Shown here: piece after piece, positions 8,388 through 26,115 of the stretch
Numbering within the stretch: the stretch's first letter is position 1
Layout of the letters: the number at the start of each line of letters is the position of its first letter
IMG/VR virus record: IMGVR_UViG_3300034418_003197
Coordinates: 1-26,115 of that record
DNA length: 26,115 nucleotides
Source of the DNA: a virus
Reading direction: 5' to 3' (one strand)
Made by a program: the position numbers and the translations under genes
Notes under the pieces: generated by a model
The model's database searches: none
Told to the model about the DNA's origin: nothing
Seen by the model: the letters and a program-made list of their open reading frames with translations, nothing else

Positions 8388-8399
8388 CGGAGCGCCATT

Positions 8400-11281: not shown

Positions 11282-11299
11282 TTGAATTTAAAGCATTTT

Positions 11300-11328
11300 T
11301 TTACGAAATAGACTAAACAAAGTATACT
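11300..11328 (+). promoter_or_regulatory. Sigma-70-type promoter for the ejection-protein operon
   Basis: TTTACG (11300-11305) and TATACT (11323-11328) are separated by exactly 17 bases, close to the TTGACA/TATAAT consensus. It lies in one of only two sizeable gene-free gaps (11282-11371). The start of transcription is expected near 11335. It would let the ejection-type genes be transcribed apart from the fibre block. Confidence 0.7.
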
Positions 11329-11342
11329 TAACCAAGGTAAGA

Positions 11343-11359
11343 TGCCGGTATAACTGGCG
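11343..11359 (+). promoter_or_regulatory. Leader hairpin just upstream of the ribosome site
   Basis: GCCGG (11344-11348) can pair with CTGGC (11354-11358) through one G-U pair around the loop TATAA; a further U-G pair closes the base. It sits about 8 bases after the predicted transcript start and 2 bases before the Shine-Dalgarno sequence. It may stabilise the mRNA or keep the ribosome site open. Confidence 0.4.
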
Positions 11360-11361
11360 AT

Positions 11362-11365
11362 GGAG
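11362..11365 (+). promoter_or_regulatory. Ribosome site that sets the start at 11372
   Basis: GGAG lies six bases before the ATG at 11372. An in-frame ATG at 11360 has no such site and would itself contain the GGAG, so the shorter protein is preferred. Confidence 0.6.
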
Positions 11366-11371
11366 CAAAAA

Positions 11372-13183
11372 ATGGCCGCAACAGCACTTCAAGAGGAGCT
11401 AATGCCTGCCGGGGGCATCGCAGATTTTATCTTTTCAGATGAAGAGCTTGATGCTTTAGAAGAAGCCGAAACAGAGCAAACTTTCGGCACACAAGGCATT
11501 GCTGAATTTAAACCAATTGCTAGAAAAATGGCCTCTTACGGTCGTTATGGCGACGATCATATCGTACACGCCGAAACTGGCGAGCTGGTTGTTCCCAAAA
11601 TGTTAATTGATCAAAGTCCAGAGCTTAAAGAATCTATCTTTAGCCATCTTCGTGAAATGGGCATTGAAGAGCCAGAACGCTTTGTTGTTGGGTCTGACGC
11701 AAACTCATTAAACCCGATGACTGGAATGCCTGAATTTTGGAACCCTTTAAAGCAGGTAAGAAAGGCGGTCTCTAATATCGGAAAAGGCGTTTCAAAAGCG
11801 TTCAAGTCTGTCGGCAAAGTCCTCAAAAAAGTTGCTCCGATTGTTCTTCCAATTGTAGGAACAGCGCTGTTCGGACCAATTTATGGTGCGGCTCTTGGCT
11901 CGGGTATTAGCACTTTAATACAGGGCGGCAATATAAAAGACGCCTTTAAGTCCGCGTTAATTAGCGGCGGTATCGGGGCTCTTGGCGCAGGAGTTACCTC
12001 AAAACTAGGCGGTGGCGGCTTTATGGAAGGCGTTAAAAATGCTGGAAATACGGCAAACCTTAAAGCAGGTTTTGATAGCCTCGGTAGAGCCGCAACCGGA
12101 GACTTCTCGGGCTTCTCTATGTCTAACATGAAGGCTGGTCCTGCTAGTGAAGGAGGTACGGCCTATATTGAACCACCCTCTACTGGCCCCTTGACTACCG
12201 AAGCGGCGAGAGAAGCGGCAATGAACGTTCAGACTGCCTCTCAATATCCGGTTTCTCCATCTACGGATGCGTTGACTACTCCTACGAGTTCGGTGAGCGA
12301 CGCTCAATTATATGATTCCGCAATGTCTGGTTCAGCAAACACTTTGACAACCCCTACTAATCCGTTGACAACCCCTACGACAGACGTTGTTACGCAAAAC
12401 ACTTTGACACCCCCTGCGGGAGACGTTGTTACTCAGAGCGCCTATGAACCCAAAGGGTTTTTACAAAACCTTTCCGAAGGTAATATTAGCGAAGCGTTCC
12501 TTCCTTCTGGACCAACGGCAGAGCAGGTGGCCGCGCAACAAGCAAGTACCTACAATAAGGCGTATCAAACAGCAATATCGAACGGTTCTACTCCGGCAGT
12601 TGCAGAGAATATTGCGAAAAAAGCAATGAGTAATGTAACTGCTTCAAGCATGGGACCCGGCTTAATTGCAAGCTACGGACCGTTAGCCGCGGCAGGAACA
12701 GCGGGGGCCGCGGCCCTTGGGTTCTTTGACACTCCTCCAGAGGAAGAGCCCGAGGGGGCTGAGGATTTTGAACTATCTGGTGAAGATTTAATTGCTCAGA
12801 ATCCGGATGATTACCTCATCAGCGGAATTGATCCTGTAACAGGACAAGTTATTGGGTTAGATCCAAAACTGGCCTCTGACAGAAACTTCTTAGTTGAGTC
12901 TAGTCGTCAGCTAGGCGGCTACGGTGGTGGAACCCGAGGAAGAACCGATGGTATCTTCCGCGCCGCCGCCGGCGGTCAGGTTTATCCCCGCAGAAATGGC
13001 GGGATTATGCCTAATGAGGGCACCCCTAACCGCGATAGTGTACGCGCATTGCTAATGCCCGGTGAGTTTGTAATGACAAAAGATGCGGTCCGGGGCCTTG
13101 GTAACGGAAGTCTAAACAACGGCATTCAGAACATGTACTCGATGATGCGAGGGCTTGAAACCAAAGGACGGAGAATGGCGTAA
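11372..13183 (+). CDS. Internal virion / DNA-ejection protein with cationic helix and hydrophobic segment
   Basis: The 603-residue product has several parts. Residues 1-115 include an acidic start and a conserved stretch (YGRYGDDHIVHAETGELVVP, then SLNPMTGMPEFW). Residues about 127-155 form a cationic amphipathic helix with Lys at 138, 142, 145, 149, 152 and 153. A hydrophobic glycine-rich region follows (about 155-215: PIVLPIVGTALFGPIYGAAL, then GGIGALGAGV) that could cross or insert into a membrane. Residues about 265-365 are a Thr/Pro linker. The C-terminus carries GGQVYPRRNGGIMPNEGTPN and ALLMPGEFVMTKDAVRGLGN, a pattern common at the ends of phage tape-measure or internal virion proteins. 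No enzyme motif is visible. First gene of the operon; the next starts within its stop (TAATG). Confidence 0.7.
   Translation: MAATALQEELMPAGGIADFIFSDEELDALEEAETEQTFGTQGIAEFKPIARKMASYGRYGDDHIVHAETGELVVPKMLIDQSPELKESIFSHLREMGIEEPERFVVGSDANSLNPMTGMPEFWNPLKQVRKAVSNIGKGVSKAFKSVGKVLKKVAPIVLPIVGTALFGPIYGAALGSGISTLIQGGNIKDAFKSALISGGIGALGAGVTSKLGGGGFMEGVKNAGNTANLKAGFDSLGRAATGDFSGFSMSNMKAGPASEGGTAYIEPPSTGPLTTEAAREAAMNVQTASQYPVSPSTDALTTPTSSVSDAQLYDSAMSGSANTLTTPTNPLTTPTTDVVTQNTLTPPAGDVVTQSAYEPKGFLQNLSEGNISEAFLPSGPTAEQVAAQQASTYNKAYQTAISNGSTPAVAENIAKKAMSNVTASSMGPGLIASYGPLAAAGTAGAAALGFFDTPPEEEPEGAEDFELSGEDLIAQNPDDYLISGIDPVTGQVIGLDPKLASDRNFLVESSRQLGGYGGGTRGRTDGIFRAAAGGQVYPRRNGGIMPNEGTPNRDSVRALLMPGEFVMTKDAVRGLGNGSLNNGIQNMYSMMRGLETKGRRMA
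12272..12440 (+). repeat. Thr/Pro low-complexity repeats in the ejection protein
   Basis: TTGACAACCCCTAC occurs at 12344 and again at 12365 (21-base period), with related copies at 12272 and 12403. The elements GACGTTGTTAC at 12382-12392 and 12422-12432 also repeat. At protein level this gives LTTPT and DVVTQ units in a disordered linker. Confidence 0.6.
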
Positions 13184-14055
13184 TGGCTAAAGATACGACC
13201 ATACAGATTGTCAAAGAAGATCCTAAAATTGAAGCCTATAAGCTAGCGCTTTTAAAAGAAGCGCAAGCATTATCGCAAAAAGATTTAGCGGACGAGCTTC
13301 CTATTTATCAAATTGCTGGGATGGATCCGCTACAGACTCGGGCTTTGGAATTGGCGGAGCAAGGGATTGGAGCGTATGAGCCGTACATGACGGATGCTGA
13401 TGTTGCTTCAGCGGCTTCTTATGGCGCTTTAACGTCTGGAGTAGACCCAAGTCAGCTTACAGAATTAACACAACAGTATATGACACCCTATATGGATGCT
13501 GTTGGGTCTGAGATTAACAGAGCTTATGACATTCAGCAGGCTCAACAAACCGGACAATCTATTGGTCAAGGCGCTTTTGGTGGATCTCGGGCGGCTTTAT
13601 TGCAGAATGAAATTGACCGTGACCGCGTAGGTGCTTTAGCTAAGGCGCAAGCGGATGCGTATATGAACGCGCAACAAGCGGCTTCTGGAATGATGGACCG
13701 TAGCTTACAAGGGGGACAAGCACTGGGCACCTTGGCTTTACAGCAGGCCGGTCTTGGCGAGTTGCTTCAACAGCTTGGTCAAAGAGAAACTCAATATTTA
13801 TACGATGCCGGTAAAGCTCAGCAAGCGCAGGATCAGGCAGTTCTTGAAGCAGAGCGCATGAGTGATCTACAAAGCTTGTATCAGCCTTATCAGAATCTTG
13901 CATTTTTGTCAGATATTTATAAAGGAGCGCCGTCTTCACAGATGTCGTTAACTTCAACGACTGCGCCACAAGCCTCACCTTTCCAAACATATTTAGGATT
14001 AGGTATTGGAGGGCTGAGTGCCGCGGCGGGTGCTAAAGAGGCAGGGTTGTTCTAA
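13183..14055 (+). CDS. Internal virion protein, Gln/Ala-rich and helical
   Basis: The 290-residue product overlaps the previous gene by TAATG and the next by TAATG. It begins with a basic/acidic segment, then a motif QIAGMDPLQTRALELAEQGI (about 44-63) and YMTPYMDAVGSEINRAYDIQ (about 104-123). A long Gln/Ala-rich helical stretch follows to about residue 240, with SIGQGAFGGSRAALLQNEID at about 127-146. The C-terminus is small-residue rich and mildly hydrophobic (FQTYLGLGIGGLSAAAGAKE). I recognise this family as a frequent gene among internal virion proteins of marine podovirus-like phages. By size, helix content and position it may correspond to the small T7-type core protein gp14, but the sequence alone does not prove it. 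Confidence 0.65.
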   Translation: MAKDTTIQIVKEDPKIEAYKLALLKEAQALSQKDLADELPIYQIAGMDPLQTRALELAEQGIGAYEPYMTDADVASAASYGALTSGVDPSQLTELTQQYMTPYMDAVGSEINRAYDIQQAQQTGQSIGQGAFGGSRAALLQNEIDRDRVGALAKAQADAYMNAQQAASGMMDRSLQGGQALGTLALQQAGLGELLQQLGQRETQYLYDAGKAQQAQDQAVLEAERMSDLQSLYQPYQNLAFLSDIYKGAPSSQMSLTSTTAPQASPFQTYLGLGIGGLSAAAGAKEAGLF

Positions 14056-15377
14056 TGGCTTTTCCGGGAAGACGAAATTTAAATTTATTACTTGGCGGTT
14101 CCAATCCCGCAGACCTTATTTCTAGCTTACCGGGATTTTCTGGCGGTATGCCTAGACCAAGACCACGTTTTCCTATGCCTCCGGGCGGCGGATCCCCGGG
14201 CGGTATGCCACGCCCTCCTGTGATTAACCCCGGTATGCCTCCGGGCGGCGGGTCTCCGGGCGGTATGCCACGCCCTCCAATGGTTAATCCGGGCATACCT
14301 CCGGGAGGTATTAACCGACGTTTCTTTGGCGGACGTGGACGTTTCCCCAGCGGAAGTTTCCCCTCTATACCCCAAGGTTTTCCCGGCGGACGTTTAGGAG
14401 GCGGCTATCCCGGCATGGGCGGTACAGGTCCTTTACCAGTTCCTCCCGGAGGTATGGGCGGCTATCCCGGCATGGGCGGTACAGGTCCTTTACCAGTTCC
14501 TCCCGGAGGTATGGGCGGCGTATTTCCTACGATGCAACACCAAGCTCAAATGCAAGGACCGCTCGGTACTCTAGTGCAACAAGCTCAACCGGCTCAACCG
14601 GCTCAATCAACTCAGATGAACAATCTTGGTGCGGTTGGTAATCGTCAAATGTTTGCCAAAGGCGGAGTGGTTCAGAAGTATGCGGACGGCGGTTTAATCG
14701 GATACGCTAGTGATTTGATGGGTATTGGCGAAGGCGTTAAAGACGCGCTAGGTCAAATCGCAGGCGGTGATTACTACGCAATGGCACAATCTACCCCAAC
14801 AGCGGGCGGGTATGGCGGAACGTCAACCACGGACCTTGGCGAAGTTATTCCGCAAGAAGAAACAATGTTTACAGATGCTACAGGTATGGCAGAAGGCGGT
14901 GAACCAATGGACGCAATGATGGCACAAGACACAATGATGGCGCCGGGTGCAATGGATGAGATGAGTTCAGAGGGGCTAGAAGTTAACCCAGAAAACCTTG
15001 CAATGACGATGGGCGAAGGGTTGGATCCAGAGGGGATGGCTTTTGTTCAAGGTTCTTTGGAAGAAGCCTCTCAGTCACTTGGTGATATTGAAAATTCTGA
15101 TTCCCCTGAATCAATGATGGATGCTGTTCGCGGGGATCAGGCTACGATGTCAGATCGCCGTGCAGAACTTGCGATGGTTGTAGGCGAAGAAGACGCCGCA
15201 CGCACCCCGGATTCAGTTTTGGTACTTCTTCAGCCTGTAATGGCAATGAATGAGATGTCTCCTGAAGAAATCGATCAAAACATGGATCAAGGCATCGGCT
15301 TTTTAGCACAGCAAGAGATGCAAGAACCCGTACAAGGCGATATGGCCGGCGGGATTATGTCAATGATGGGAGGCTAA
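14055..15377 (+). CDS. Pro/Gly-rich repeat virion-associated protein
   Basis: The 440-residue product has two unlike halves. Residues 1-155 are Pro/Gly/Met/Arg-rich, with two kinds of tandem repeat: 20 residues (MPPGGGSPGGMPRPPxxNPG) and 19 residues (GYPGMGGTGPLPVPPGGMG). They look disordered or collagen-like but lack a strict Gly-x-y rhythm. After a Gln linker comes QMFAKGGVVQKYADGGLIGY (about residues 198-217). The C-terminal part (about 275-440) is acidic, Met-rich and helical, with MAEGGEPMDAMMAQDTMM and a stretch starting PESMMDAVRGDQ. No enzyme or membrane segment is seen. It lies between two internal-protein genes, so it is probably packaged or a scaffold-like partner of them, by inference. 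Confidence 0.6.
   Translation: MAFPGRRNLNLLLGGSNPADLISSLPGFSGGMPRPRPRFPMPPGGGSPGGMPRPPVINPGMPPGGGSPGGMPRPPMVNPGIPPGGINRRFFGGRGRFPSGSFPSIPQGFPGGRLGGGYPGMGGTGPLPVPPGGMGGYPGMGGTGPLPVPPGGMGGVFPTMQHQAQMQGPLGTLVQQAQPAQPAQSTQMNNLGAVGNRQMFAKGGVVQKYADGGLIGYASDLMGIGEGVKDALGQIAGGDYYAMAQSTPTAGGYGGTSTTDLGEVIPQEETMFTDATGMAEGGEPMDAMMAQDTMMAPGAMDEMSSEGLEVNPENLAMTMGEGLDPEGMAFVQGSLEEASQSLGDIENSDSPESMMDAVRGDQATMSDRRAELAMVVGEEDAARTPDSVLVLLQPVMAMNEMSPEEIDQNMDQGIGFLAQQEMQEPVQGDMAGGIMSMMGG
14175..14310 (+). repeat. 60-base tandem repeat, about 2.3 copies
   Basis: Copies start at 14175 and 14235 and a partial third at 14295. The unit begins ATGCCTCCGGGCGGCGG and encodes MPPGGGSPGGMPRPPxxNPG. Differences between copies are few. 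Confidence 0.85.
14400..14513 (+). repeat. Exact 57-base tandem duplication
   Basis: Bases 14400-14456 and 14457-14513 read identically by eye. The unit contains GGCTATCCCGGCATGGGCGG and encodes 19 residues. Identity without silent changes means a recent duplication. Confidence 0.85.
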
Positions 15378-15378
15378 T

Positions 15379-18099
15379 ATGGCCGTCAATAATGGTATTG
15401 GATCGTTACCCTTTCCTTTTCCTTCTTATGACGAGTTGTTGTCTTCCGGATTAACGCAAGATCAATACCAATCGGCGGCTCTTCGCGGAACTGCGAGAGG
15501 ACTTCAAGCGATGCGGAATCAATCTGCTCAACAACCAACTGCCGCACAATTTTTGATGCCAGAAGTACCGACTTTGCAAGAAGAATTCCAAGACCGACGG
15601 AACACTTATCGCGGCATTTTGGGGGATCCGGAACAACAGCGAAAAATGACACGAGCGCAAATACTGTTTGACATTGCAAACACTGCGCTTGCATTCGGTA
15701 CGGCTGGATCACGTCCGGGCATGTCCCCTGCCGAGCGTTTGGCAGAGGCGACGGTAGAAACCCAGTTGTTCCCGAAAATCGGAGCGCGGACCGCGGCACA
15801 AAACGAACAGCAACAGAAAGTTGATCTGGCGGCATTGCAGTCGGCAGAAACGTCTTTGGCCGCGAAACAGAAAGCGGCGGCGGATTATCGAGAAGCGTTG
15901 TTAAAGCAAGGCGATGATTATTTAGGCTATGTTTGGAAAGTAGGCGATACAACTTACGGTCCGTTTAACATGAAAAGTTTTAGCGGACGTCAAGAAATGG
16001 CCGCGGCTAAAGCGCGATATCCAGACGGAAGCCCATTTAAAGTTGGTGAAGAAAAAACTCCGGCTAAACCTTCATTAGTCACTTTAGTAGACCGAAATGC
16101 GTCAAATCCGATGTCTACTGCAATAACCTTAAACCCGTCGGACCCTACACAAGCACAACGAATTAAAGAATTAACCCAAGATCAAGGGTTTGTTGAGGCT
16201 GGAAATGCTCCAATGACTAGAAGCGCAGATCTAGTCACTATGATTAATCCTACAAACCCGTTTGATCGTAGAACGCTAAATTTAGCCCTTCCTCAACAGT
16301 ACGACATGTTTAAACAGTTGCAGGAATCTCGTTATGTTAAAGCCAGTGACGCGGTTAATTCAAAGCTATCTGATCCAGTAGTCTTAGTAGATCCGACAGA
16401 TCCGAAAAAGACAGTCATGCTGGATCCATTAATTCCGGCAGACTATGCTAGGTACCGAGATCTTACTCAAAATAGAGGATACGTTTTACAGGGTAAAGCT
16501 CCGGACATTAGTCCAGACATGAAAACGTTCGTTGATCCAGCTAATCCAAAAAATACAAAGATGTTGGATCTTAAAAACCCAGACGATATTGAACAACTTA
16601 AAACTCTCAAAACGTTGGGATGGGTTGAACAAGGTAAAGAACCAGATCTTACACAAGACCTTAAAACATTTGTGGATCCATCTAATCCAAATAATCGTAA
16701 GACGTTAGATCTAAACGACCCAGAAGAGCGGTCTATGGCAGACTTCTTACGGCAAGGCGGTTATGTAGTGTCCGGGACAGAAGGGGCTACATCTATGGAT
16801 TTAATCACTTTGGTTGATCCAGACGACCCAACAAAACGTCAGACATTTGATAGGAATAATCCGGCGGATAGAGCTACAATTCAAGCGCATATTAGTACCG
16901 GCTCTATATTGGAGGGGGATGAAGCTACTCCTCAAACGGTGGTTACCCGAAATTTCTATCATCCGGAAACTGGAGAAATACGCACAATTATTGCTAATGC
17001 TCCTGATGCTCAAAAACAAATCAAACAAGCCCTTTCTGACGGACTTGTTGGCACAGGCGAAGCGGATAATAGCCCCGGAGCAACATTCGGTCGTGGGTTT
17101 GAATCTCGGCTTATTGATCTTCTTGGAGATCCAGAAAAACTACGTCAATATGCTGACGGCACTCTGGATGAAGGCTTAACGCTGAAGCTCAACATGGCAA
17201 TTAGTAAGGCCGCACAACCAACAACGGGCTGGAATTCTGAGCTTGGCCGAAATGTCGTTATCCAAGGCATGAACTTCCCACAAGAAGTTGTTGACGCGAT
17301 CAGATCCCGTCAATCCTTGAATCTTGCAGTTCCAAATATGACGGGCACGGCGATGGTTGGTGCGCTTAACCCAGTTGCGGCGGAAGGTGCCGCTCCTAAT
17401 GAACTAGCGATTCCTTTAAACACGCCTTCTTTCTATACCTCTCTTAAAAGCGCAAACGGTTCTATTGATTTAGACGCGCCAAACTGGAGACGTTTACCAA
17501 CTACTTTGTTTAACCCATCTATTCGTTATGAAAGAGCAACCGGTATTGGTGAAATTGCTCAACGTGTCAGTAATTATTTTTCAGAAAATACTCGCGAACT
17601 TGGCGGGGCTCCAATGTCTGAGCAAGGCGCGGAACTTGTGCAAGCAGAGCGCGACCTGATTGCATTGCGTAACGAAGTCATGATGCTGATTACTAACATT
17701 GGCGTTGATGACAGGATGCTCAAATCTGTTCAAGACGCAATTAATCAGGAAATTGAAGGATTTACTCCGGGCATGTTTAAGAGTGATGAAAAAGCTCTTG
17801 GTACAATCACTACGACCAGAAAACAGTTGGGTCGAGCTTGGAATATGGGAGCGGGTATTGTTCCTGAGTACGGCGGGGATCCAACAGGATATACCGAAGC
17901 GCAAGTTACTAAGTACCGGGCAAATATGAAAAAAGTAACTGATTTAATCGCAGAATTAACGGCGTTTGAAGATTCGTATAGGGCACATTTGGCTAGAGGT
18001 GCTACTGGATCAAGCGAACAGCCGCTGTCCAGAAGTGATGCTAGAAACCTGATCCAACAATACTCAACTCTTCGTAGTCCTACGGCATCACCACAATAA
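15379..18099 (+). CDS. Large internal virion protein with seven 48-residue repeats
   Basis: The 906-residue product follows a GGGAGG ribosome site. Residues 1-200 are mostly helical and Gln-rich (LTQDQYQSAALRGTARGLQA, ARAQILFDIANTALAFG-like segment, LQSAETSLAAKQKAAADYRE). Residues 232-568 hold seven repeats of about 48 residues with the consensus D(L/M)xTxVDPxNPxxxKTLDLxxP, then a helix, then GYVxxGxxP. Residues about 575-906 return to a mixed and helical fold without known motifs. I do not recognise an enzyme. Size and position between the Pro/Gly protein and the 1507-residue protein fit a T7 gp15-type ejection protein or a tape-measure-like spacer. This is inference. Confidence 0.65.
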   Translation: MAVNNGIGSLPFPFPSYDELLSSGLTQDQYQSAALRGTARGLQAMRNQSAQQPTAAQFLMPEVPTLQEEFQDRRNTYRGILGDPEQQRKMTRAQILFDIANTALAFGTAGSRPGMSPAERLAEATVETQLFPKIGARTAAQNEQQQKVDLAALQSAETSLAAKQKAAADYREALLKQGDDYLGYVWKVGDTTYGPFNMKSFSGRQEMAAAKARYPDGSPFKVGEEKTPAKPSLVTLVDRNASNPMSTAITLNPSDPTQAQRIKELTQDQGFVEAGNAPMTRSADLVTMINPTNPFDRRTLNLALPQQYDMFKQLQESRYVKASDAVNSKLSDPVVLVDPTDPKKTVMLDPLIPADYARYRDLTQNRGYVLQGKAPDISPDMKTFVDPANPKNTKMLDLKNPDDIEQLKTLKTLGWVEQGKEPDLTQDLKTFVDPSNPNNRKTLDLNDPEERSMADFLRQGGYVVSGTEGATSMDLITLVDPDDPTKRQTFDRNNPADRATIQAHISTGSILEGDEATPQTVVTRNFYHPETGEIRTIIANAPDAQKQIKQALSDGLVGTGEADNSPGATFGRGFESRLIDLLGDPEKLRQYADGTLDEGLTLKLNMAISKAAQPTTGWNSELGRNVVIQGMNFPQEVVDAIRSRQSLNLAVPNMTGTAMVGALNPVAAEGAAPNELAIPLNTPSFYTSLKSANGSIDLDAPNWRRLPTTLFNPSIRYERATGIGEIAQRVSNYFSENTRELGGAPMSEQGAELVQAERDLIALRNEVMMLITNIGVDDRMLKSVQDAINQEIEGFTPGMFKSDEKALGTITTTRKQLGRAWNMGAGIVPEYGGDPTGYTEAQVTKYRANMKKVTDLIAELTAFEDSYRAHLARGATGSSEQPLSRSDARNLIQQYSTLRSPTASPQ
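16072..17082 (+). repeat. Seven protein repeats of about 48 residues
   Basis: Successive units begin at SLVTLVDRNASNP, DLVTMINPTNPFD, DPVVLVDPTDPKK, DMKTFVDPANPKN, DLKTFVDPSNPNN, DLITLVDPDDPTK and VVTRNFYHPETGE. Each continues with a strand, a short helix and a GxVxxG turn. Units 4 and 5 are most alike, while 1, 2 and 7 have drifted. A preceding segment (YVWKVGDTTYGPFN) may be a further degenerate copy. Confidence 0.8.
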
Positions 18100-18112
18100 G
18101 GGAAGGTAGAAC

Positions 18113-21100
18113 ATGGCACAGCAAACTCCAACCGCTCAATCCGCCGCTCCACCTTCAATTACTGTTGGAGGGTCAAGTTATCCCGTTCCAAACGTGGATA
18201 GGCCCTTATATGATGTTGAATTCACTGCGGAAAATTTTAACACCCTAGTTAAAGAAATCGGAGTTCATAATATAACAACGGGGGTAGTTGATACCGCTAC
18301 TCAAAACTACCAGCCCGGTCTTTTTTCTTATGAAACGTTAAAAGACGGAACTGCCCCGTTATTTGATTTGTTTCCACAATATGAAAACGTTGCCCCAGAA
18401 AAACGGGGATTAAAAGACGAAGCTATGCTGTCTCTTTTTAGTAACGTGCAAGATTTCGGGAAATACTGGAAGAACGAGGCGGACCCAGACCCTTCTTACA
18501 ATTTAGATGCCCTGTGGCACGGGGCTAAAAACGAGATAGGGCCTGCTACGGGGGTAACGCTTGGAGTTACGACAGGTATAAAAGCAGTAACACCGTGGGC
18601 CGCGCCTTTAATGCCGGTTTCCCCTTACCTTGGAACGGCCATATATCTAGGAGGCGCAACGGCGGGAGGAATTGCAGGATATTTTGCAGGAAGAGAAGCC
18701 GGAGAAGCGTTAATCGGTCCTAAAGCTCCTGTGGTCCCTACACTAAAGGCTAGTAACAATTTAGGGGAAACTTTGACTTTTGGTGTAAGCAGTCTTGCAA
18801 CTCCCATGCTTTGGCCGGTTAAGGCTATGCAAGGCACCGGTGCCGTTAATTTCTTGACCAATTTTAAACAAGTTGCTCAAGGCGAACGATTTGCCAATAT
18901 TGCTGACGACGCCATTGAAGCCGCCGCGAAAGAAGCGGGTCTCACCGTAAAACAAATGCAACGAGCGGTAGAATTACAAAGAAATCCTCCGGGAGTAATG
19001 TTTTCTAGACAAGGAGAAGGTATTCCTTTGGGGGTTACACGATTTAATCCTAGTGGAAAATTGTTTGACCCAACTAAGGGACCTGTTGGCGTTAGAATGA
19101 TTTCAGCCGCAGGCGAAGGGATTGAACGTAGCATGATAAATGCGCGGAACCACCCCGGAGTCTTTCTCGGGTTTGAGACTTTAGCCATAGGCGGTGCTGG
19201 ACTTGGTGCTTATGGATCTGAAACGGCGTTCCCCGGAAGTAACGGATTTCGTTTTTTGAGCGAAATAACGGGAGCGGCGTTAGTTCCCCTTGCCGCAAAG
19301 CCAATTGTGCAGTGGGGACCAGATGCGATTAAGAACGTCTATAACTTAGCCAAAAAATATTACACAGGGGAATCTCAGGGTCTTTTTGAGCAATCCATGA
19401 AACAGGATGCTGGCCGAAGAGTTTATTCTGTAATGGAAATGGCCTTTACGGATCCGCAAGCCGAAAGACCCGTAGGCCCAATGATGATTAATGCGGATGG
19501 GGATCTCAAGATTTTACCAGAAACTGCCCCAGATTTAGTTGAACAAATGCGGGCGTTCCGTGAACAAGGGTATGAAGAAATTGACCCGATGACCGGGTTT
19601 ATTCGTCTTTTAGAAAAAGCGGCAAATGATCCAAAATTCCAAGTTGCGGGAGAAGGGTCTGCTCAGTTAACTACGGCCAGTTTGGCTCAAGCGGCCGGAG
19701 TTCCCGGAGCAAAAGCGTTAAGCGTAATGGAAAATGAGTTAAAACGAAGCAGTGACGAATTAGCTCTGTCCAGCGATAAAGGTCGAGAAAGCTTTATTCA
19801 AGCCGCTAAATCTGCATTGTTGATGTTGAACAAGTCCGGAAAACCTGAAGATTTAGCGATGGCGGCTTTAATTCAACGAAAGTTGTTTGAACAAAACATT
19901 CTTGATGAAACAACGCTTTCATTAACCCGTCTTGCAGAAGCTTTTAAACGTGTATACGGAACAGGTGAAAATCTCGGAGAAAGCCAAAGGAATCTTTTTT
20001 CAGATAGAGTCTACGAAGTATTGATGAATCAGCTTGCTATTTCTAAAGGCCGAGAAAGACAGCTTTGGCAACAAATCCCTGACTTTAGCGTTGAACGATT
20101 TTTTGCAGTAGATGGATCAGAAGTTGATGTTCCAAACATGCTTAGGATCTTTGACGTAAGAATGGATGATGGGGGTATTAAATTTGCGTCAAAAACAGCC
20201 GAGGCTGATTTTAACAGAGCCCTTGGCGATGCCATGCTCGAACTGGAAGAAATGCGTACTTTCTATGGAAGGGGAGCAGGCGCAGGCGCAGGAGCCGCTG
20301 ACTCAACTGCCGGAGGAGCCGCGGATACGGCGCTTTCTGGTTTAGGAAAAGAAAAGACGTCTATTTACCAACCTGCCTTGAACATGATGCCAGACAGAGG
20401 CGATGCTCCGTCGGGCTTCCGTGTTTTTCAAAGACGCGGGGAAGAAAAAGGGTTTGTTACGACAGTTGTCGATTCCAACGGTAATAAGGTTGAACTACGG
20501 CTAGATCCGACAGATAGAGTAACCCCGTATACGGCCACAATTATTAACGGGGTTGGGCCGGATGCCTACCGTGCAGGGGCGACATCAGATACCGTACCCT
20601 TAGCGGGTCCAAACAATGTTCAGGAAGCGATTGCGATGACTCGCGTTCGCATGTCGCAGGGGGGAGACTTTGTATTTACTCCACCTACCGCGGCTCAAGG
20701 AACAACTGCCGCTTCAACGACTGCGGGAACAACTGCGGGAACAACTGCTCCGGCTTCTGATCCGTTAAATCCTCCTCCGTTTACGTTTGAAAAAATGTAT
20801 GAATACCGAAGTGCTATTTTAGATCGAGCGGCAGAAGCACGAGCGGCGGGAAAGAACAGCTTGGCTAAACGTTTAGACAGGTATGCGGCCGCAATTTTAC
20901 AAGATCTTGTGGGAACTCCATTGGATCAACTCCCGGCCGGAACCGGAGAAAAGGCCATTAAGGCATACAACTCCGCTAGAGAATATACGAAAGCGCGGAA
21001 CGCTGTTTGGAATCAAGGCATATTAGGCGAAATGCAAAAGTATAGCTCGGAAACCCGCGATTTAAGAATGGATCCGTCAGTGTTTGCTCATCGCCTTTTC

Positions 21101-22636
21101 CAAGGAGGCGATAACCCTCTGGTAAATCGCGTTGAACAGATTTTAAACGTACCTGCTTTTATGAAAGCTCAAGCAGGGGGATCCGTAGATGCACCTTCAT
21201 ATCAGTTAGATAAGACTGAATTTCCTACTTTTATAGAGGATTTGAAAGCCGGCGAAGATATTCCAGATCTAATGTTTAAACTGGTTAATGACGCTCAAAA
21301 GAAAATTCTTAGCAAGCGCGTAGACAAAGAAACAGGGGATATCACTTATGTAGTTGATCCCAAAAAACTAGAGGACTACCGGAACAATCCTGAAGTGCAA
21401 CGGTTAATGAGCATTTTCCCCAGCTTGGCTCAAGACCTGTCTACAGTAGAAAGTGCTCAACGATTAGCAAACTCTACGTTGTTCCGAGAAGCAACTGATG
21501 AGGAACTGTTAACTCGTTCCGTATTAGAAGGGTTTCTTGGGGGAGAAAAAGCCAGTTTAGGCGTTTCTAGAATATTGACGGGTAAAAATCCAAGCACGGG
21601 GCTTAATGAGTTAAGACGTTTAATTGACGGCATGGATGCAAACTCGATCAATCCGAAAACAAACCAACCGTTTGGAAAAGAAGGCTTGGAAGAATTTAAA
21701 TCGGATGTCTTTAAAGCCTTACGAGGATCTATTTTTGATGTCGCGATTACGCAATCGGGTGGAACAGGTTTCAGCTTTAGCCCCAAAAAAATGTCTGATT
21801 TTCTATTTCAACCATTGAAGTTTGCGGCGTCTAAAGAGGGCAAAGACTTTACCATCATAGACTGGATGAAAAGTAATAAACTAATTGGTGAAGATGAAGT
21901 TGGTCTAATTAAGAAAAACTTAGCAGAAATGATTGACGTTGAAGCGGCTTTTGCTACAGGTCAGCAAGAAAAAATATTGTTTAAAAATCCAACAGCGTCC
22001 AAGATGATGATGACTAAGATTCTTGGCGCCACTTTTGGTTTACAAGTACAAAACACCTTAGAAGGGATGCTGAAAAAAATTGGCATAACGCCGCCCAGTG
22101 GAATTGGCGGTGGAATTATTGCGGCGGAAAGTGGCTCCGATATCGTAGTCAACATGCTTTTGCGCGCGCCAGAAACGGCTAAAGTTAACTTCATGGTCGA
22201 GATGATGCAAAATCCACGATTAATGGCGTTAATGATGCGAGAAATTAAAGATGCGAAAGATGCTAAAAACACCTTTAAAGCAATAGAAAGCGCAATCAGC
22301 GGAACTATTTCTCAAGCTGGCCGAAGACTTCCTTATGCTGAAAGAGCGGTTATAGAAGAGGCTGAAGAGCCAGACTTAGACAATTTCGGGGCTTCTGTAA
22401 CTCCGCAAGCACCACAGCAGAACCTGATGGCACAGCGGTTTGCTCGCTCACAGCCGACGGTGATTCAACCACGGCCCGCGGCTCCTGCTCCCGCTCCTGT
22501 TGCACAGGCCCCCGCACCACAACCCGCACCACCACAAGGCGCGGCAAATCCACAGCAACGTCAGCAGTTAGCGGCAATGTTCCCTAACGATCCGATCTTG
22601 GGAGCGGCCGGCGGCATAGGAAGCTTGTTCTCATGA
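18113..22636 (+). CDS. Giant internal virion / ejection protein with hydrophobic segments
   Basis: The 1507-residue product is the largest in the window and follows a GGGAAGG ribosome site. Residues about 143-210 are Gly/Ala-rich and hydrophobic (TGVTLGVTTGIKAVTPWAAP, LGTAIYLGGATAGGIAGYFA), like a glycine-zipper membrane segment; a second such region lies at about 352-400. Long charged helical regions follow. Low-complexity linkers are at about 722-735 (GAGAGAGAADS) and 863-882 (Thr/Ala/Gly repeats). The C-terminus is Pro/Ala/Gln-rich (APAPAPVAQAPAPQPAPP) and ends AGGIGSLFS. By length it compares with T7 gp16 (1318 residues), which enters the host envelope, but I see no lytic transglycosylase motif. 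The acyltransferase gene starts in its stop codon (ATGA). Confidence 0.7.
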   Translation: MAQQTPTAQSAAPPSITVGGSSYPVPNVDRPLYDVEFTAENFNTLVKEIGVHNITTGVVDTATQNYQPGLFSYETLKDGTAPLFDLFPQYENVAPEKRGLKDEAMLSLFSNVQDFGKYWKNEADPDPSYNLDALWHGAKNEIGPATGVTLGVTTGIKAVTPWAAPLMPVSPYLGTAIYLGGATAGGIAGYFAGREAGEALIGPKAPVVPTLKASNNLGETLTFGVSSLATPMLWPVKAMQGTGAVNFLTNFKQVAQGERFANIADDAIEAAAKEAGLTVKQMQRAVELQRNPPGVMFSRQGEGIPLGVTRFNPSGKLFDPTKGPVGVRMISAAGEGIERSMINARNHPGVFLGFETLAIGGAGLGAYGSETAFPGSNGFRFLSEITGAALVPLAAKPIVQWGPDAIKNVYNLAKKYYTGESQGLFEQSMKQDAGRRVYSVMEMAFTDPQAERPVGPMMINADGDLKILPETAPDLVEQMRAFREQGYEEIDPMTGFIRLLEKAANDPKFQVAGEGSAQLTTASLAQAAGVPGAKALSVMENELKRSSDELALSSDKGRESFIQAAKSALLMLNKSGKPEDLAMAALIQRKLFEQNILDETTLSLTRLAEAFKRVYGTGENLGESQRNLFSDRVYEVLMNQLAISKGRERQLWQQIPDFSVERFFAVDGSEVDVPNMLRIFDVRMDDGGIKFASKTAEADFNRALGDAMLELEEMRTFYGRGAGAGAGAADSTAGGAADTALSGLGKEKTSIYQPALNMMPDRGDAPSGFRVFQRRGEEKGFVTTVVDSNGNKVELRLDPTDRVTPYTATIINGVGPDAYRAGATSDTVPLAGPNNVQEAIAMTRVRMSQGGDFVFTPPTAAQGTTAASTTAGTTAGTTAPASDPLNPPPFTFEKMYEYRSAILDRAAEARAAGKNSLAKRLDRYAAAILQDLVGTPLDQLPAGTGEKAIKAYNSAREYTKARNAVWNQGILGEMQKYSSETRDLRMDPSVFAHRLFQGGDNPLVNRVEQILNVPAFMKAQAGGSVDAPSYQLDKTEFPTFIEDLKAGEDIPDLMFKLVNDAQKKILSKRVDKETGDITYVVDPKKLEDYRNNPEVQRLMSIFPSLAQDLSTVESAQRLANSTLFREATDEELLTRSVLEGFLGGEKASLGVSRILTGKNPSTGLNELRRLIDGMDANSINPKTNQPFGKEGLEEFKSDVFKALRGSIFDVAITQSGGTGFSFSPKKMSDFLFQPLKFAASKEGKDFTIIDWMKSNKLIGEDEVGLIKKNLAEMIDVEAAFATGQQEKILFKNPTASKMMMTKILGATFGLQVQNTLEGMLKKIGITPPSGIGGGIIAAESGSDIVVNMLLRAPETAKVNFMVEMMQNPRLMALMMREIKDAKDAKNTFKAIESAISGTISQAGRRLPYAERAVIEEAEEPDLDNFGASVTPQAPQQNLMAQRFARSQPTVIQPRPAAPAPAPVAQAPAPQPAPPQGAANPQQRQQLAAMFPNDPILGAAGGIGSLFS

Positions 22637-23067
22637 ACGAACTCGGACTGGCAGTTAGCTTGATGATGAGGTCCGACTTCCATCGCCCGTGGTTTATTTC
22701 TGATCTGGAAGACTGGATAACTCCTGCCATTGAAAACAACAGGATTCAGTTTTTCTACGATGGTGAGGAGCCAATAGGCTTTTTTACCTACACGTTTTTA
22801 ACGGAATGTACAGAGCTTGGGTATCTGACAAAAACAGATAAGTTGCAACCAAGCGATTGGCAAACCGGACCGGAGGATGGCCGTTTATACGCCATTGACT
22901 TTATTGCGTTTAAAAATGTGAGACAATGTGTAAAGGATGCAGGCAAGACTTTGCAGGCCCAATATGGGACAGTCAAAGGCGAATGTCATTTTTTCCGGTA
23001 TGCAAAAGACCGCTTGGGACGCATAGCAAAGAGACGAGATGAATTATGTTTGAAGATGGCATCGTAA
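22633..23067 (+). CDS. HlyC-like toxin-activating lysine acyltransferase
   Basis: The 144-residue product aligns by eye with HlyC, the enzyme that moves a fatty acyl chain from acyl carrier protein to internal lysines of RTX toxins. Matching points are SDFHRPW (HlyC SPLHRNW) with His17 at the place of catalytic His23, PAIENNRIQFF (PAIxxNQY), PIGFFTYTFLTECTELGYL (the VA/GFxSWAxLSxExExxYL segment), LQPSDWQTGPEDGRLY (the DWxSGDRxW segment) and AIDFIAF with Asp89 at the place of Asp92. HlyC proteins have about 170 residues; here the C-terminus is shorter and basic. The gene overlaps the giant protein gene by ATGA and the next gene by 22 bases, so it is made with virion proteins. No RTX repeat protein is in the window; the substrate is unknown. 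Confidence 0.85.
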   Translation: MNELGLAVSLMMRSDFHRPWFISDLEDWITPAIENNRIQFFYDGEEPIGFFTYTFLTECTELGYLTKTDKLQPSDWQTGPEDGRLYAIDFIAFKNVRQCVKDAGKTLQAQYGTVKGECHFFRYAKDRLGRIAKRRDELCLKMAS

Positions 23068-23747
23068 AACAACGCCAGATTGGCTTTGACCCTGAAACCT
23101 CAATGCACTGTTTCGGCGGTGGCGGCGGTGGTGGCGGCGGTGGCGGTTTCGCCGGTGAAAACAGTACTGAAAGCCGTCCGGCAAACACTTATAACTTTAA
23201 TCAGCCAAAAGACAAGATGGATGCGATACAAGAAGCCGCTAAAACAGCTTTTGAACAACGCGCCATGCAACTTGGCCAAGTAACCAATCCTTATGAAACA
23301 CAAAAAGCTTTGGCTGAAGCCTCTCCGATGTCAGCAAGCCTTAACCCTTCTCAATTGACAGGTATTGGCGGAGGTTTTCAAGCTGAGATACAGAATGCAA
23401 TCGGGGGCCTTGGCGGACTTGGCGGAACTTCTATAGCGAGTCCTCAACAAGACTTTGGCCTTAATAATGTAAACTTCAATTCGGCTCAATCTCCAAAAGA
23501 TTTTATGGGTAATGCGCTTACAACTGTTGCGGATGTTTACAATCAGGCTAGAGCTGGATTGGATATTGCTCCCGGCGTTAATGTTTCAACAGGCGGAATC
23601 AACTTTGGATCTCCAGAGGGTCCTTATGGTCAACTAAGTATCAACCCAATGGATTTAGAAAGAGCCCTTCAGTTCAAAATGAACTTTGCCGAGGGTGGGG
23701 CGGTCCCTAATTCGGGCATCGCAACCCTCATGCGACGGAGAGTCTAA
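23046..23747 (+). CDS. Virion-associated protein with an 11-Gly run
   Basis: The 233-residue product starts inside the end of the acyltransferase gene (22-base overlap, different frame) with purine-rich GAGACGAGA before its ATG. Residues 1-23 end in HCF, followed by eleven Gly (24-34). The middle is Gln/Asn/Ala-rich, with a helical stretch MDAIQEAAKTAFEQRAMQLG at about 58-77 and a glycine patch IGGLGGLGGTS. The C-terminus reads NFAEGGAVPNSGIATLMRRR, with the FAxGGxV-like motif shared by its neighbours. I know no function. Position and style suggest another packaged or assembly-linked protein. The next gene starts within its stop (TAATG). Confidence 0.6.
   Translation: MFEDGIVKQRQIGFDPETSMHCFGGGGGGGGGGGFAGENSTESRPANTYNFNQPKDKMDAIQEAAKTAFEQRAMQLGQVTNPYETQKALAEASPMSASLNPSQLTGIGGGFQAEIQNAIGGLGGLGGTSIASPQQDFGLNNVNFNSAQSPKDFMGNALTTVADVYNQARAGLDIAPGVNVSTGGINFGSPEGPYGQLSINPMDLERALQFKMNFAEGGAVPNSGIATLMRRRV
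23115..23147 (+). repeat. GGY microsatellite coding poly-glycine
   Basis: Eleven consecutive GGC or GGT codons follow TGTTTC. Length changes by slippage in threes would alter glycine number without frameshift. Confidence 0.9.
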
Positions 23748-24298
23748 TGCCTAGTGTTTTTAACCGGATATATGACCGCTTTGAAAGGAGCAATGCTTCC
23801 CCGAGCATTACTCCTCGGGTCCGTCAATATTCTGCGTTGAGACGTGAGTTAGCTAAACGAAACAAGCGGTTAGATAAGTATTCTGAACAAGCAAAAGATT
23901 ACAATTCACAAATTGCCGAATGGAACAAAGGCCCGCGAGATAAAGAGCTTCCTTTCACGGAAGACGACATCAAAAAATTTCAAGCTGAATACGACAAATA
24001 TCATACTCAAGCTCAGAGATATGCAAACGATGCCGCAAGGCGCCACAAAGCTAGGCAACAAGGGGCTTCTACTGCGATGAGCATGTTTATGGGCGACACA
24101 GGTCCCGGCGGGGGCTTAGGTGGATTTGCTTTTCAGCCTACAATGTTTGCGGATGGCGGTATGGTACAGCCTACGATGGGAATGAATCCCATGATGCAAA
24201 ACGCTATGATGTACCCACCACCGCAAATGCAAAACCCTGTTACAACACAGGGTATCGCGCCTTTATTTAATTTTAGGTTGATCGGTCAACCGTCATAA
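23747..24298 (+). CDS. Coiled-coil protein with FADGGMV motif, last gene of the late operon
   Basis: The 183-residue product overlaps the upstream gene by TAATG. Residues about 24-105 are highly charged and helical (YSALRRELAKRNKRLDKYSE, DIKKFQAEYDKYHTQAQRYA), probably a coiled coil. The remainder is Gly/Met/Pro-rich with FADGGMVQPTMGMNPMMQ and YPPPQMQNP and ends FNFRLIGQPS. The FADGGMV stretch resembles FAKGGVV and FAEGGAV in other proteins of this operon. No known domain is seen. The stop codon lies six bases into the oppositely oriented helicase gene, so the two are convergent with no gap. Confidence 0.6.
   Translation: MPSVFNRIYDRFERSNASPSITPRVRQYSALRRELAKRNKRLDKYSEQAKDYNSQIAEWNKGPRDKELPFTEDDIKKFQAEYDKYHTQAQRYANDAARRHKARQQGASTAMSMFMGDTGPGGGLGGFAFQPTMFADGGMVQPTMGMNPMMQNAMMYPPPQMQNPVTTQGIAPLFNFRLIGQPS
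23787..23814 (+). promoter_or_regulatory. Inverted repeat near the 5' end of the last late gene
   Basis: GGAGCAATGC (23787-23796) faces GCATTACTCC (23805-23814) across an 8-base loop; nine of ten pairs match. It lies inside the coding sequence, about 40 bases past the start, and has no T-run after it, so it is not a standard terminator. It could affect translation or RNA decay, or be chance. Confidence 0.3.
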
Positions 24299-25747
24299 TA
24301 ACCAAGTCTTGGTTTCTTCCCCAAGCACTTGACCTGCAATATCAATCTTGTCGCGTAGCGCACTGAGTATTTTCTCATCCACGGTATGCGGCGTGACGAT
24401 ATCAATGTAAGTGACGTTTTTTCCTTGCCCAATCCGGTGGGCGCGATCTTCTGATTGCAAGCGTATCTCTAAGTCATAACCGTTATTGTAGTAGATCATA
24501 GTGCCTGCTTCGGTCAGGGTAATCCCGTAGCCCCCTGTGCGGGGCTGACCAACAAAGAACCGTAGCTCGCTGTTAGGATCTTGGAACGTTTCAACAATCT
24601 CCTGCCGTTCATCTTGCGGCGTCTCGCCAAAGTAGATACGGGACGAGCCTTCGCCATATTTCTTGGTTAGCTCTGAATGAATAATTTTTAGATCATGCGT
24701 AAAGGTTGCCCAGATAATGATCTTGCCCGAAGTTTCTTCAATAATATCAAGCAGTTCTGACAAACGATTGCTTTTTAAAGTGTGCAAATCACCGGCATCG
24801 TCAGGAAGATGTCCACAACAAATTTGCTGTAATCGCATAATTTGGGTTAATACCGACGCAGTTGTGGATAACTCTCCGGACTCTAGCTTTGCCAGAGCAA
24901 GTTTCTGCATTTGTTTGTAGGCTTTGGCTTGCTCATCGGTCAGGCTGACGTTGCGCCGCATGTAGACTTTATCTGGCAAATCCAGACAGTCGGACTTGAG
25001 TACGCGGTTGCTGAACTTATCGAGTTTTTCATTTAGCTCATCCAGACGACGGTAGCCGGTAATCTCATTAAAGCTCTTGTGACCCATCGTGCGCTTCTGC
25101 ACAACGGCGTAACGATTCTGGTAGCCATAGTACGAGTTGATACCAAGCGCCTTGGGGGACAGAAACGCGCACTGGCTAAACAAATCCATCGGGGACTTTG
25201 TGATGGGCGAACCTGTGAGGATGCGACGGTACTTGCTGACCTTCAACAGTTCTACAATGTTCGCGGTCCGCTGTGCTTTTCTGTTCTTAATCGTCGTCGA
25301 TTCATCAACAATTACTAAATTATCAGGATTCTTTTTGCAGAATTCATACGCGGCTCGCGTACCCCTTGGGGTAGAAAACGCCTCAACGTTCATCACAAAA
25401 ATTTTAAGCCCTTCAAAGGCTTCGTAGACTAACTTGACTAACTCGTCCTGATAACTTTTGGCACCAGAGGGCGTCCAACGGACGACCTGCGTTGCAATGC
25501 GCTCGGGCAAATGGGCTTCTAATTCTTTGCGAACCCAGTTATCGTAGACGCCCTTCGGAGCAATGATGAGCGCCGCGTCGATATGACCTTTTTCATACAG
25601 CATACCCATCGTATCAATGGTAACTTTCGACTTACCCGTTCCCATCTCCATGAACAGCGCATAGTATTCCGCGTCCCACGAGTCGCGTAGCGCATTAAGC
25701 TGATGTTCATACGGCTTGGTCTTAAATTCATAATTTTCAAAATTCAT
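24293..25747 (-). CDS. SNF2-family DEAD/DEAH-like helicase
   Basis: The 484-residue product is a superfamily 2 ATPase of the SNF2 type. Motifs in order are a Q-motif-like PYEHQ (12-16), Walker A MGTGKS (35-40), motif Ia IAPKGVYDNW (62-71), Walker B VIVDEST (145-151, with DEST instead of DEAH), motif III LTGSP (177-181), a motif V-like TGGYGITLTEA and motif VI QSEDRAHRIGQ (431-441). I chose the ATG at 25747 because AGGGG lies eight bases upstream; an in-frame ATG at 25807 would add twenty residues and run through the promoter region. Phage proteins of this type are usually grouped with replication or recombination genes, where they remodel DNA or remove bound proteins. It is the only minus-strand gene and has its own promoter. 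Confidence 0.9.
   Translation of the reverse strand: MNFENYEFKTKPYEHQLNALRDSWDAEYYALFMEMGTGKSKVTIDTMGMLYEKGHIDAALIIAPKGVYDNWVRKELEAHLPERIATQVVRWTPSGAKSYQDELVKLVYEAFEGLKIFVMNVEAFSTPRGTRAAYEFCKKNPDNLVIVDESTTIKNRKAQRTANIVELLKVSKYRRILTGSPITKSPMDLFSQCAFLSPKALGINSYYGYQNRYAVVQKRTMGHKSFNEITGYRRLDELNEKLDKFSNRVLKSDCLDLPDKVYMRRNVSLTDEQAKAYKQMQKLALAKLESGELSTTASVLTQIMRLQQICCGHLPDDAGDLHTLKSNRLSELLDIIEETSGKIIIWATFTHDLKIIHSELTKKYGEGSSRIYFGETPQDERQEIVETFQDPNSELRFFVGQPRTGGYGITLTEAGTMIYYNNGYDLEIRLQSEDRAHRIGQGKNVTYIDIVTPHTVDEKILSALRDKIDIAGQVLGEETKTWLL
24300..24314. repeat. 15-base palindrome at the convergent gene junction
   Basis: AACCAAG-T-CTTGGTT is a perfect inverted repeat directly after the late operon stop and inside the 3' end of the helicase gene. 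The central base leaves little loop, and only a weak T-rich stretch follows on the plus strand. It might be a weak terminator or protein site. Confidence 0.35.
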
Positions 25748-25759
25748 GTCACTTTCCCC

Positions 25760-25788
25760 TTGACTCTTGCTAATCATAGGATTATATA
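25760..25788 (+). promoter_or_regulatory. Plus-strand promoter for the rightward gene
   Basis: TTGACT (25760-25765) and TATATA (25783-25788) are 17 bases apart. The start is expected near 25795. It overlaps almost completely with the minus-strand promoter at 25773-25800, so one polymerase would block the other. Confidence 0.65.
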
Positions 25789-25800
25789 TAGAAATGTCAA
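25773..25800 (-). promoter_or_regulatory. Minus-strand promoter for the helicase gene
   Basis: On the minus strand, TTGACA (25800-25795) and TATGAT (25778-25773) are 16 bases apart. The -35 is a perfect consensus match. Transcription should begin near 25766, giving a leader of about 19 bases that already contains the AGGGG ribosome site. Confidence 0.65.
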
Positions 25801-25817
25801 GGCCCAAACGGTGCCTT
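25799..25817 (+). promoter_or_regulatory. Leader hairpin before the rightward gene
   Basis: AAGGCCC (25799-25805) can pair with GG (25810-25811) and GCCTT (25813-25817) with one bulged T, around the loop AAAC. It starts about four bases after the predicted transcript start and ends seven bases before the GGAG ribosome site at 25825-25828. Confidence 0.4.
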
Positions 25818-25836
25818 TAACAACGGAGAAAAGCGC

Positions 25837-26115
25837 ATGAGCGATCTTAACGAATCAGCAGATCTGCTGAGAATGATGGAGCAGGACACTGCCGAATCGA
25901 GCATAGAAACGCTAGACCAAGAAGGGCTTCATACTGTTGCCTCAATGGCCGTAGCAATAAGAAATAAAGAAGCAGAAATCGAAGATCTTGAGGCCAAACT
26001 CAAGAAAGAGAAAAACGCTCTTTTAAAAATGACTGACGAAGACTTGCCGACCATGTTGGCCGAACTTGGTTTGTCATCAATGACTTTGGACGACGGCTCA
26101 AACGTTACTGTAAAG
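25837..26115 (+). CDS. Coiled-coil small phage protein, 5' part only
   Basis: An ATG at 25837, eight bases after GGAG, opens a frame that runs to the window edge; 93 residues are visible. The N-terminal 45 residues are acidic and helical. Residues about 46-67 form a short coiled coil (KEAEIEDLEAKLKKEKNALL), followed by MTDEDLPTMLAELGLSSMTL and DDGSNVTVK. The pattern 'coiled coil, then (E/D)LP.(L/M)(M/L)AE.G...(F/M)TL.DG..(V/I).VK' is familiar from short phage proteins encoded near DNA replication genes (possibly the DUF7173 group, from memory). The function is unknown to me. It is probably the first gene of an early or replication operon. Confidence 0.75.
   Translation, partial: MSDLNESADLLRMMEQDTAESSIETLDQEGLHTVASMAVAIRNKEAEIEDLEAKLKKEKNALLKMTDEDLPTMLAELGLSSMTLDDGSNVTVK

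Follow-up and report, generated by a model that had tools for sequence, protein, structure and literature searches.

Conserved, fully overlapping divergent promoter sequences between the helicase gene and the replication operon of related phages

Two promoters on the same DNA

Can two promoters that point away from each other share all of their DNA, and what would such an arrangement do for the phage that carries it? The question arises in a stretch of 26,115 bases from a virus record, the whole of which was analysed and is called the window below. A rightward structural module (with PHROG matches to tail fibre, virion structural and tape-measure families) is followed there by a single leftward gene, encoding a helicase, and then by the start of a rightward gene (Table 1). 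A preliminary description placed two promoters, one on each strand, on the same 41 bases of the intervening gap, with both -35 boxes inside an inverted repeat, and proposed either a competitive switch between the helicase and the rightward operon or an operator bound by a dimeric regulator. The sequence agrees to the base with its reading of both promoters, TTGACT-17-TATATA (plus) and TTGACA-16-TATGAT (minus), and the repeat is exact. With a full set of -35 and -10 hexamers on each strand of the same DNA, the site belongs, as a class of sequence, to the overlapping divergent sigma70 promoters.

Table 1. Features of the helicase gap and its surroundings, with the basis of each assignment
Feature	Position	Strand	Basis or remark
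Window	26,115 bases		virus record
SNF2-like superfamily II DNA helicase, 484 aa	24293..25747	-	ATG 25747; PHROG 62 DNA helicase, E 1.7e-122
Left arm CCTTGAC of inverted repeat	25758..25764	.	exact
Rightward promoter -35, TTGACT	25760..25765	+	sequence; TTGAC arm and mirror arm kept in 54/57 clade tips
Leftward (helicase) promoter -10, TATGAT, spacer 16	25773..25778	-	sequence; promoter scan
Rightward promoter -10, TATATA, spacer 17	25783..25788	+	sequence; register 16 or 17 in relatives
Leftward promoter -35, TTGACA	25795..25800	-	sequence; promoter scan
Right arm GTCAAGG of inverted repeat	25796..25802	.	exact; AAGG forms the hairpin's 5' foot
RNA hairpin AAGGC-CC-AAAC-GG-U-GCCUU	25799..25817	+	19 nt, folded -7.9 kcal/mol
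First gene of rightward operon, cut by window end	25837..26115	+	phrog_2378; SD GGAG 25825-25828
Small Sigma70 region-4-like protein	L038:16574-16783	-	69 aa; also in G004, G021-G026

Both promoters are contained in 25760-25800. The leftward one matches the consensus at 11 of 12 positions and is the best promoter-like site in the scanned part of the window (8000-26115); the rightward one matches at 9 of 12, and was left out by the scan itself, the rule of which required a T at the last -10 position. The two -10 hexamers are separate, four bp apart, and the predicted starts, at about 25766 (leftward) and 25795 (rightward), lie 29 bp from each other.

The divergent arrangement of the genes is itself conserved. 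The nearest named relatives of the helicase belong to phages DSL-LC04 and 023Pt_psg01 (54.5% identity each, over about the whole protein), and the next to the pelagiphages HTVC027P (49.0%) and HTVC023P (43.3%). The DSL-LC04 helicase gene diverges from a gene run with primase, UvrD-like helicase and DNA polymerase I, while in the records of HTVC027P, HTVC023P and 023Pt_psg01 the replication genes run rightward from base 1 and the helicase lies leftward at the record end. The complete arrangement is visible in contig G001 (59,977 bases), whose helicase is 98% identical to that of the window. There, the full-length homologue of the window's cut rightward gene is a match to Pfam DUF7307 and heads a replication run leading away from the helicase, namely DUF7307, a Pam3 gp34-like protein, a primase-like protein, a small sigma-region-4-like protein, a UvrD-like helicase and PolA. 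HTVC027P, which has its helicase at a similar divergent boundary, is reported to lack an RNA polymerase of its own and to depend on that of its host (PMC12753301); the accessible part of this transcriptome text does not give start sites.

Expectation from the window alone

Is the layout unusual for DNA of this composition? Promoter-like sites number 17 in 8000-26115 versus 22.6 +/- 4.8 in shuffles, and 7-bp inverted repeats with gaps of 10 to 60 number 118 in the window versus a mean of 84.65 (range 67-109) in 20 mononucleotide shuffles. The exact 45-bp pattern is found once in the window. The shorter pair TTGAC..GTCAA with a gap of 26 to 36 occurs three times, at 8197, 20151 and 25760. The pair at 20151 spans 42 bp; that at 8197-8237 is also exactly 41 bp long and lies within an ORF (6588-8387). 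Related contigs G001, G002 and G003 carry the pattern once each, at the helicase gap, so the 8197 pair, which has no counterpart in them, is probably due to chance. When the arms were fixed and the interior of the window's core was shuffled, both -10 scores were jointly reached in 1.5% (mononucleotide) or 2.9% (dinucleotide) of cases, the plus -10 alone in 31-38% and the minus -10 alone in 6-11%. Taken alone, the window thus presents a mildly unusual layout, which is weak evidence. With counts so near to background, the case rests on conservation in relatives.

Conservation of the 41-bp core

Helicase searches of viral contigs at increasing distance gave 249 upstream regions among the matches listed, the window included and the partial helicase matches L027, L029 and L085 left out; removal of exact duplicates of an 80-bp core reduced these to 143 distinct regions. 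Among the matches listed, 76 of the 143 distinct regions contain TTGAC..GTCAA with a total length of 31 to 51 bp, and 67 of these pairs measure 41 bp (four measure 37, three 33, one 36 and one 40). Controls with the same gap range, again among the matches listed, gave 5/143 for GTCAA..TTGAC and 0/143 for the reversed letters. The exact pair is absent from the other 67 distinct regions listed; outside the window's clade most regions lack it, including those of the cultured HTVC027P and HTVC023P.

We then placed these counts on a helicase tree of 112 sequences, retained from 145 by a k-mer redundancy filter. The window belongs to a clade of 57 tips with support 0.837, several inner nodes of which are poorly supported. 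The exact TTGAC...GTCAA pair is present in 54 of the 57 (53 at 41 bp and one, L222, at 40). In the three remaining tips, L048 has a plus arm that is one base off, and L016 and L018 keep the plus -35 with a degenerate minus -35. Pairs of other lengths are found on other branches, at 33 bp in L139 and L073, 36 bp in L119 and 37 bp in L120, L121, L128 and 023Pt_psg01, and most of the remaining tree has no exact pair. A pattern search with gaps of 25 to 40 gave a 41-bp match at the helicase locus in nine of ten related contigs, the tenth being G006, which holds L018.

The core is constant while its flanks are not. Among 53 clade members, the core is 41 bp long in 52 and 40 bp in one, whereas the helicase leader takes 13 different lengths (8-27) and the rightward leader another 13 (32-63); start codons were assigned by a simple rule and clade member L108 was left out of this measurement. 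The preliminary description had named loss of the arrangement in close relatives as grounds for abandoning it, and the layout is kept throughout most of the clade. As far as sequence can tell, a fixed core between variable flanks makes the layout convincing. In L009, the first rightward ORF starts with a sequence unlike that of the other members, and both core and hairpin are kept.

How well conserved are the two -10 boxes?

We derived a profile from 33 non-redundant loci (less than 85% identical) out of 67; as these loci were chosen for having both arms, the 100% presence of the arms in the profile is circular, and the unbiased figure is the 54 of 57 given above. The -10 matrix was modelled on that of E. 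coli and may not match the consensus of the hosts. With this matrix, mean -10 scores over the 33 loci lie above those of interior shuffles in both directions, 0 of 300 shuffles reaching the observed values, and z-scores against dinucleotide shuffles are 4.2 (plus), 7.2 (minus) and 9.1 (for whichever direction scores lower). The two -10 boxes have mean pairwise identities of 0.64 and 0.69, and the rest of the interior has values of 0.34 and 0.42.

The leftward -10 gives a sharp peak at a spacer of 16 bp, with a mean of 4.33 matches of 6 and TA in 31 of 33 loci; the leftward -35 is TTGACA in 32 of 33, in a set chosen for TTGAC. For the rightward -10, TA is found at spacing 17 in 22 loci and at 16 in 10, hence at one or the other in 32 of 33. 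There is no single sharp peak, matrix scores at spacings 9, 11, 14 and 19 equalling or exceeding those at 16-17; the high scores at 9 and 11 come from the mirrored TATA of the leftward box, and that at 19 from a shifted TATA. From these profiles, the leftward promoter is very likely real, and the rightward promoter is likely real with a less canonical -10. The G at 25780, at the centre of the 41 bp and outside both -10 boxes, is kept in 30 of the 33 relatives.

An RNA hairpin at the rightward 5' end

The predicted rightward transcript would begin with a small hairpin (Table 1), the stem of which starts 3-5 nt after the predicted start. In an alignment of 27 related leaders, picked for diversity and including six from outside the exact-41-bp set, 89.9% of the cells in its seven base pairs are paired, and in five of these pairs both partners vary. 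Covariation scores 0.361, compared with 0.144 for shuffles and no more than 0.102 for slid controls; 0 of 500 shuffles reached the observed value. Within the clade, a stem of at least 5 pairs with a folding energy of -4 kcal/mol or lower is found in 54 of 56 leaders (L048 had no anchor and was left out) versus 9.7% of letter shuffles; the right arm and the hairpin are both missing in L018, and L016 has a weaker hairpin. Some loci with no exact pair, L066, L110 and L105 among them, keep the hairpin with wholly different letters.

In the window, the 19-nt hairpin folds with a z-score of -2.51 against shuffles, while the whole 42-nt leader folds no better than shuffles (z -0.81). The strict hairpin motif occurs in the window only at 25799-25817, and was not found in G001, which was searched as three pieces; its true copy lies across the L038/L039 boundary and is invisible to such a search. 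An Rfam search of 25600-26115 with E up to 1 gave no match. We also considered a terminator, which is unlikely since the tetraloop-closed stem has no U run behind it.

This element is a conserved hairpin that may be of the kind of the 5'-terminal stabilizing stem-loops. As in the ompA and papA leaders, named in reference titles of PMC3997798, a short hairpin would lie a few nucleotides from the predicted 5' end of a long mRNA, and by this analogy its likeliest role would be to shield the replication mRNA from 5'-end-dependent decay. Unlike in the ompA and papA leaders, the foot of the phage hairpin overlaps the -35 box of an opposing promoter. In the rightward leaders of L105, L208 and L223, tandem CACGAAC-like units lie between the hairpin and the start codon, and such units may be a source of leader length changes.

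What would the shared site do?

We think that the site is probably an interleaved bidirectional promoter for host sigma70 polymerase, which would split initiation between the helicase gene and the replication operon by exclusive polymerase occupancy. The leftward promoter would drive the helicase gene and the rightward promoter the replication operon, their transcripts diverging from the site without overlap. From the complete overlap of the two 41-bp footprints, we infer that occupancy is mutually exclusive: host RNA polymerase would sit on one promoter at a time, every departure would free both, and the ratio of initiations would be set by the quality of the two hexamer pairs and by polymerase supply. 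The leftward -35 box would also serve as template for the start of the rightward RNA, and this RNA would then fold into the hairpin. Real competition between the two directions is plausible here because both -35 boxes are near consensus. What stands of the competitive switch first proposed for this locus is therefore a conserved pair of overlapping divergent promoters between the helicase and the rightward operon; the switch as such is unproven, because exclusion without an added regulator would split initiation in a fixed partition and would not give the two stable states of a bistable device.

Could the partition be regulated nonetheless? A phage or host protein may steer the polymerase, so that the helicase and the replication operon alternate during infection. 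The lead for such a regulator is the small sigma70-region-4-like protein of the rightward operon: a Sigma70_r4 match (E <= 0.01) is present in 12 of 18 contigs, including all eight with the 41-bp promoter (in two of these, G024 and G026, only below the curated Pfam cut-off), its gene always lies about 3.1-3.4 kb into the operon, and the G001 copy has RERVRQI at the position of the recognition helix. Activation of one direction of an E. coli bidirectional promoter is also described as repressing the other, in the accessible part of PMC12825309. However, of the eight copies in genomes with the 41-bp core, four have an intact RER(V/I)RQI and four an altered one while the TTGAC arms are identical, Sigma70_r4 matches are also seen in 4 of the 10 contigs that lack the pair, and besides the -10 boxes and the central G no extra operator is conserved in the 41 bp. 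We hold such a regulated switch to be unlikely. We consider quite unlikely the further proposal of a fixed-ratio divider working at high occupancy, at which the two directions truly compete, with three functions on the same bases and, where the recognition helix is kept, possible feedback by the sigma-region-4-like protein, which would be made from the rightward transcript and recognize the mirrored TTGAC boxes. If true, the same few bases would act as a -35 box for one direction, as initially transcribed region for the opposite direction and as the foot of a hairpin that protects the RNA.

Several other sigma-like sequences came up in these searches. In contigs G021 and G022, a further strong Sigma70_r4 match (G021:C1:20902-21039 and G022:C1:46891-47031) lies within an open frame of 226-239 aa that may encode a fuller phage sigma factor. 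A DSL-LC04 gene for an 85-aa product (L031:4400-4657, minus strand) carries the annotation 'RNA polymerase sigma-G factor'; it has no NCBIfam match at E 0.01, and this label may be wrong. The one solved-structure match of the sigma-like query, to a repeat protein (E 0.00055), was attributed to chance, as no stretch was significant alone.

Is the rightward promoter needed at all? If only the helicase-ward promoter were real, the GTCAA mirror and the AT-rich middle would owe their conservation to something else, with the start of the rightward operon at another place. The leftward -10 is indeed far sharper than the rightward one, and the window's rightward -10 is readily reached by shuffles, as seen above. 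Yet the rightward TTGAC arm stays at a fixed distance in 54 of 57 tips, is retained in L016 and L018 and mismatched in L048; the rightward TA is at one of two adjacent spacings in all but one relative; and a covarying hairpin follows closely upon the predicted rightward start. The sole other plus-strand candidate nearby, at 25706-25734 (9/12), lies inside the helicase gene. These observations make a single promoter distinctly improbable.

The inverted repeat could alternatively be an operator for a dimeric regulator, with the promoter matches secondary to it. Its 7-bp arms are exact in the window, and TTGAC and GTCAA are kept as a pair in relatives; however, this core supplies both promoters with their -35 boxes, and the bases beyond it, which lack symmetric conservation, are explained otherwise. 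On the left, the GG read on the minus strand is part of the helicase SD GGGGAAAG (25759-25752), and is missing outside the -35 in relatives with a longer helicase leader, L043 and L235 for example; on the right, the extra GG belongs to the foot of the covarying hairpin (AAGG). Nor do the dyads agree, since the arms are centred on column 20 of the core and the inner TATA dyad on column 20.5. Complementarity around 20.5 is seen in 28, 29, 27 and 20 of 33 loci at the inner positions, versus 2, 6, 10 and 2 at comparable positions around 20, the half-base-pair offset that a 17-bp and a 16-bp spacer should produce. In relatives, moreover, the various pair lengths (33, 36, 37, 40 and 41) would shift the helical phase of the arms. 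We found no symmetric half-sites beyond the promoter elements at a fixed helical phase, and we regard the operator put forward in the preliminary description as very improbable. That the arrangement arose by chance in an AT-rich gap is scarcely conceivable, since near-background matches in the window and a second 41-bp pair within a gene at 8197 are set against conservation at fixed length in 54 of 57 tips and the lack of any counterpart to that second pair in G001-G003.

Relation to known promoter pairs

The interleaved bidirectional promoter that we favour is best compared with those of E. coli described by Warman, Forrest, Stringer, Wade and Grainger, which are called hardly studied in the accessible part of PMC12825309. 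There, starts lie mostly 18 bp apart, also 10 or 23 bp, and the two directions share a -10. The phage site resembles them in that a single short, pseudo-symmetrical sigma70 sequence lies between two mRNAs and would start them in opposite directions, with polymerases that exclude each other (a prediction in our case). It differs from them in having predicted starts 29 bp apart, a separate -10 for each direction and near-consensus -35 boxes. Judged on predicted starts, it falls outside the geometry of a shared -10 with starts 10, 18 or 23 bp apart, and we therefore class it with the overlapping divergent promoters, as an interleaved variant. In the portion of PMC12825309 available, the basal activity of five tested E. 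coli bidirectional promoters was too low for competition, and improving one -35 strongly repressed the other direction; it is these 'up' mutants that the -35 boxes of the window resemble. If our reading is true, strong promoters in both directions may allow a phage to exploit the polymerase competition that is weak at the E. coli sites tested.

Other compact divergent promoters are accompanied by dedicated regulators. At bioA/bioB of E. coli, the operator of the BirA repressor overlaps the promoter pair, unlike at the phage site, where no repressor operator is evident. The likeness lies in the compact divergent promoters within one gap (bioA/bioB is listed as bidirectional in the accessible part of PMC12825309). 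Plasmid pLS20 likewise has overlapping divergent promoters between two transcription units of a mobile element; according to the title of PMC4207663 it uses DNA looping in a genetic switch, whereas at the phage site we found no operators or loop sites.

Overlapping divergent promoters are thus a known kind of element. What is new is the family-wide fixed geometry and the overlap of -35 box, initially transcribed region and hairpin. Our literature searches on bidirectional and divergent promoters gave no description of the 41-bp element, which is not proof of absence, and term searches within three papers on related phage groups did not find the word 'promoter'. The related aquatic-type phage contigs constitute a set of natural variants, with a fixed 41 bp and variable insides, and with branches at 33, 36 and 37 bp, from which the packing rules for two promoters on one site could be read from evolution.

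Six of the 143 distinct regions among the matches listed, all from the DSL-LC04 group (L031, L091, L094, L095, L100 and L101), have no TTGAC pair and share instead the palindrome AGTGTACACT. With TACACT on both strands, this palindrome looks like a bidirectional promoter with a shared -10 in the helicase gap.
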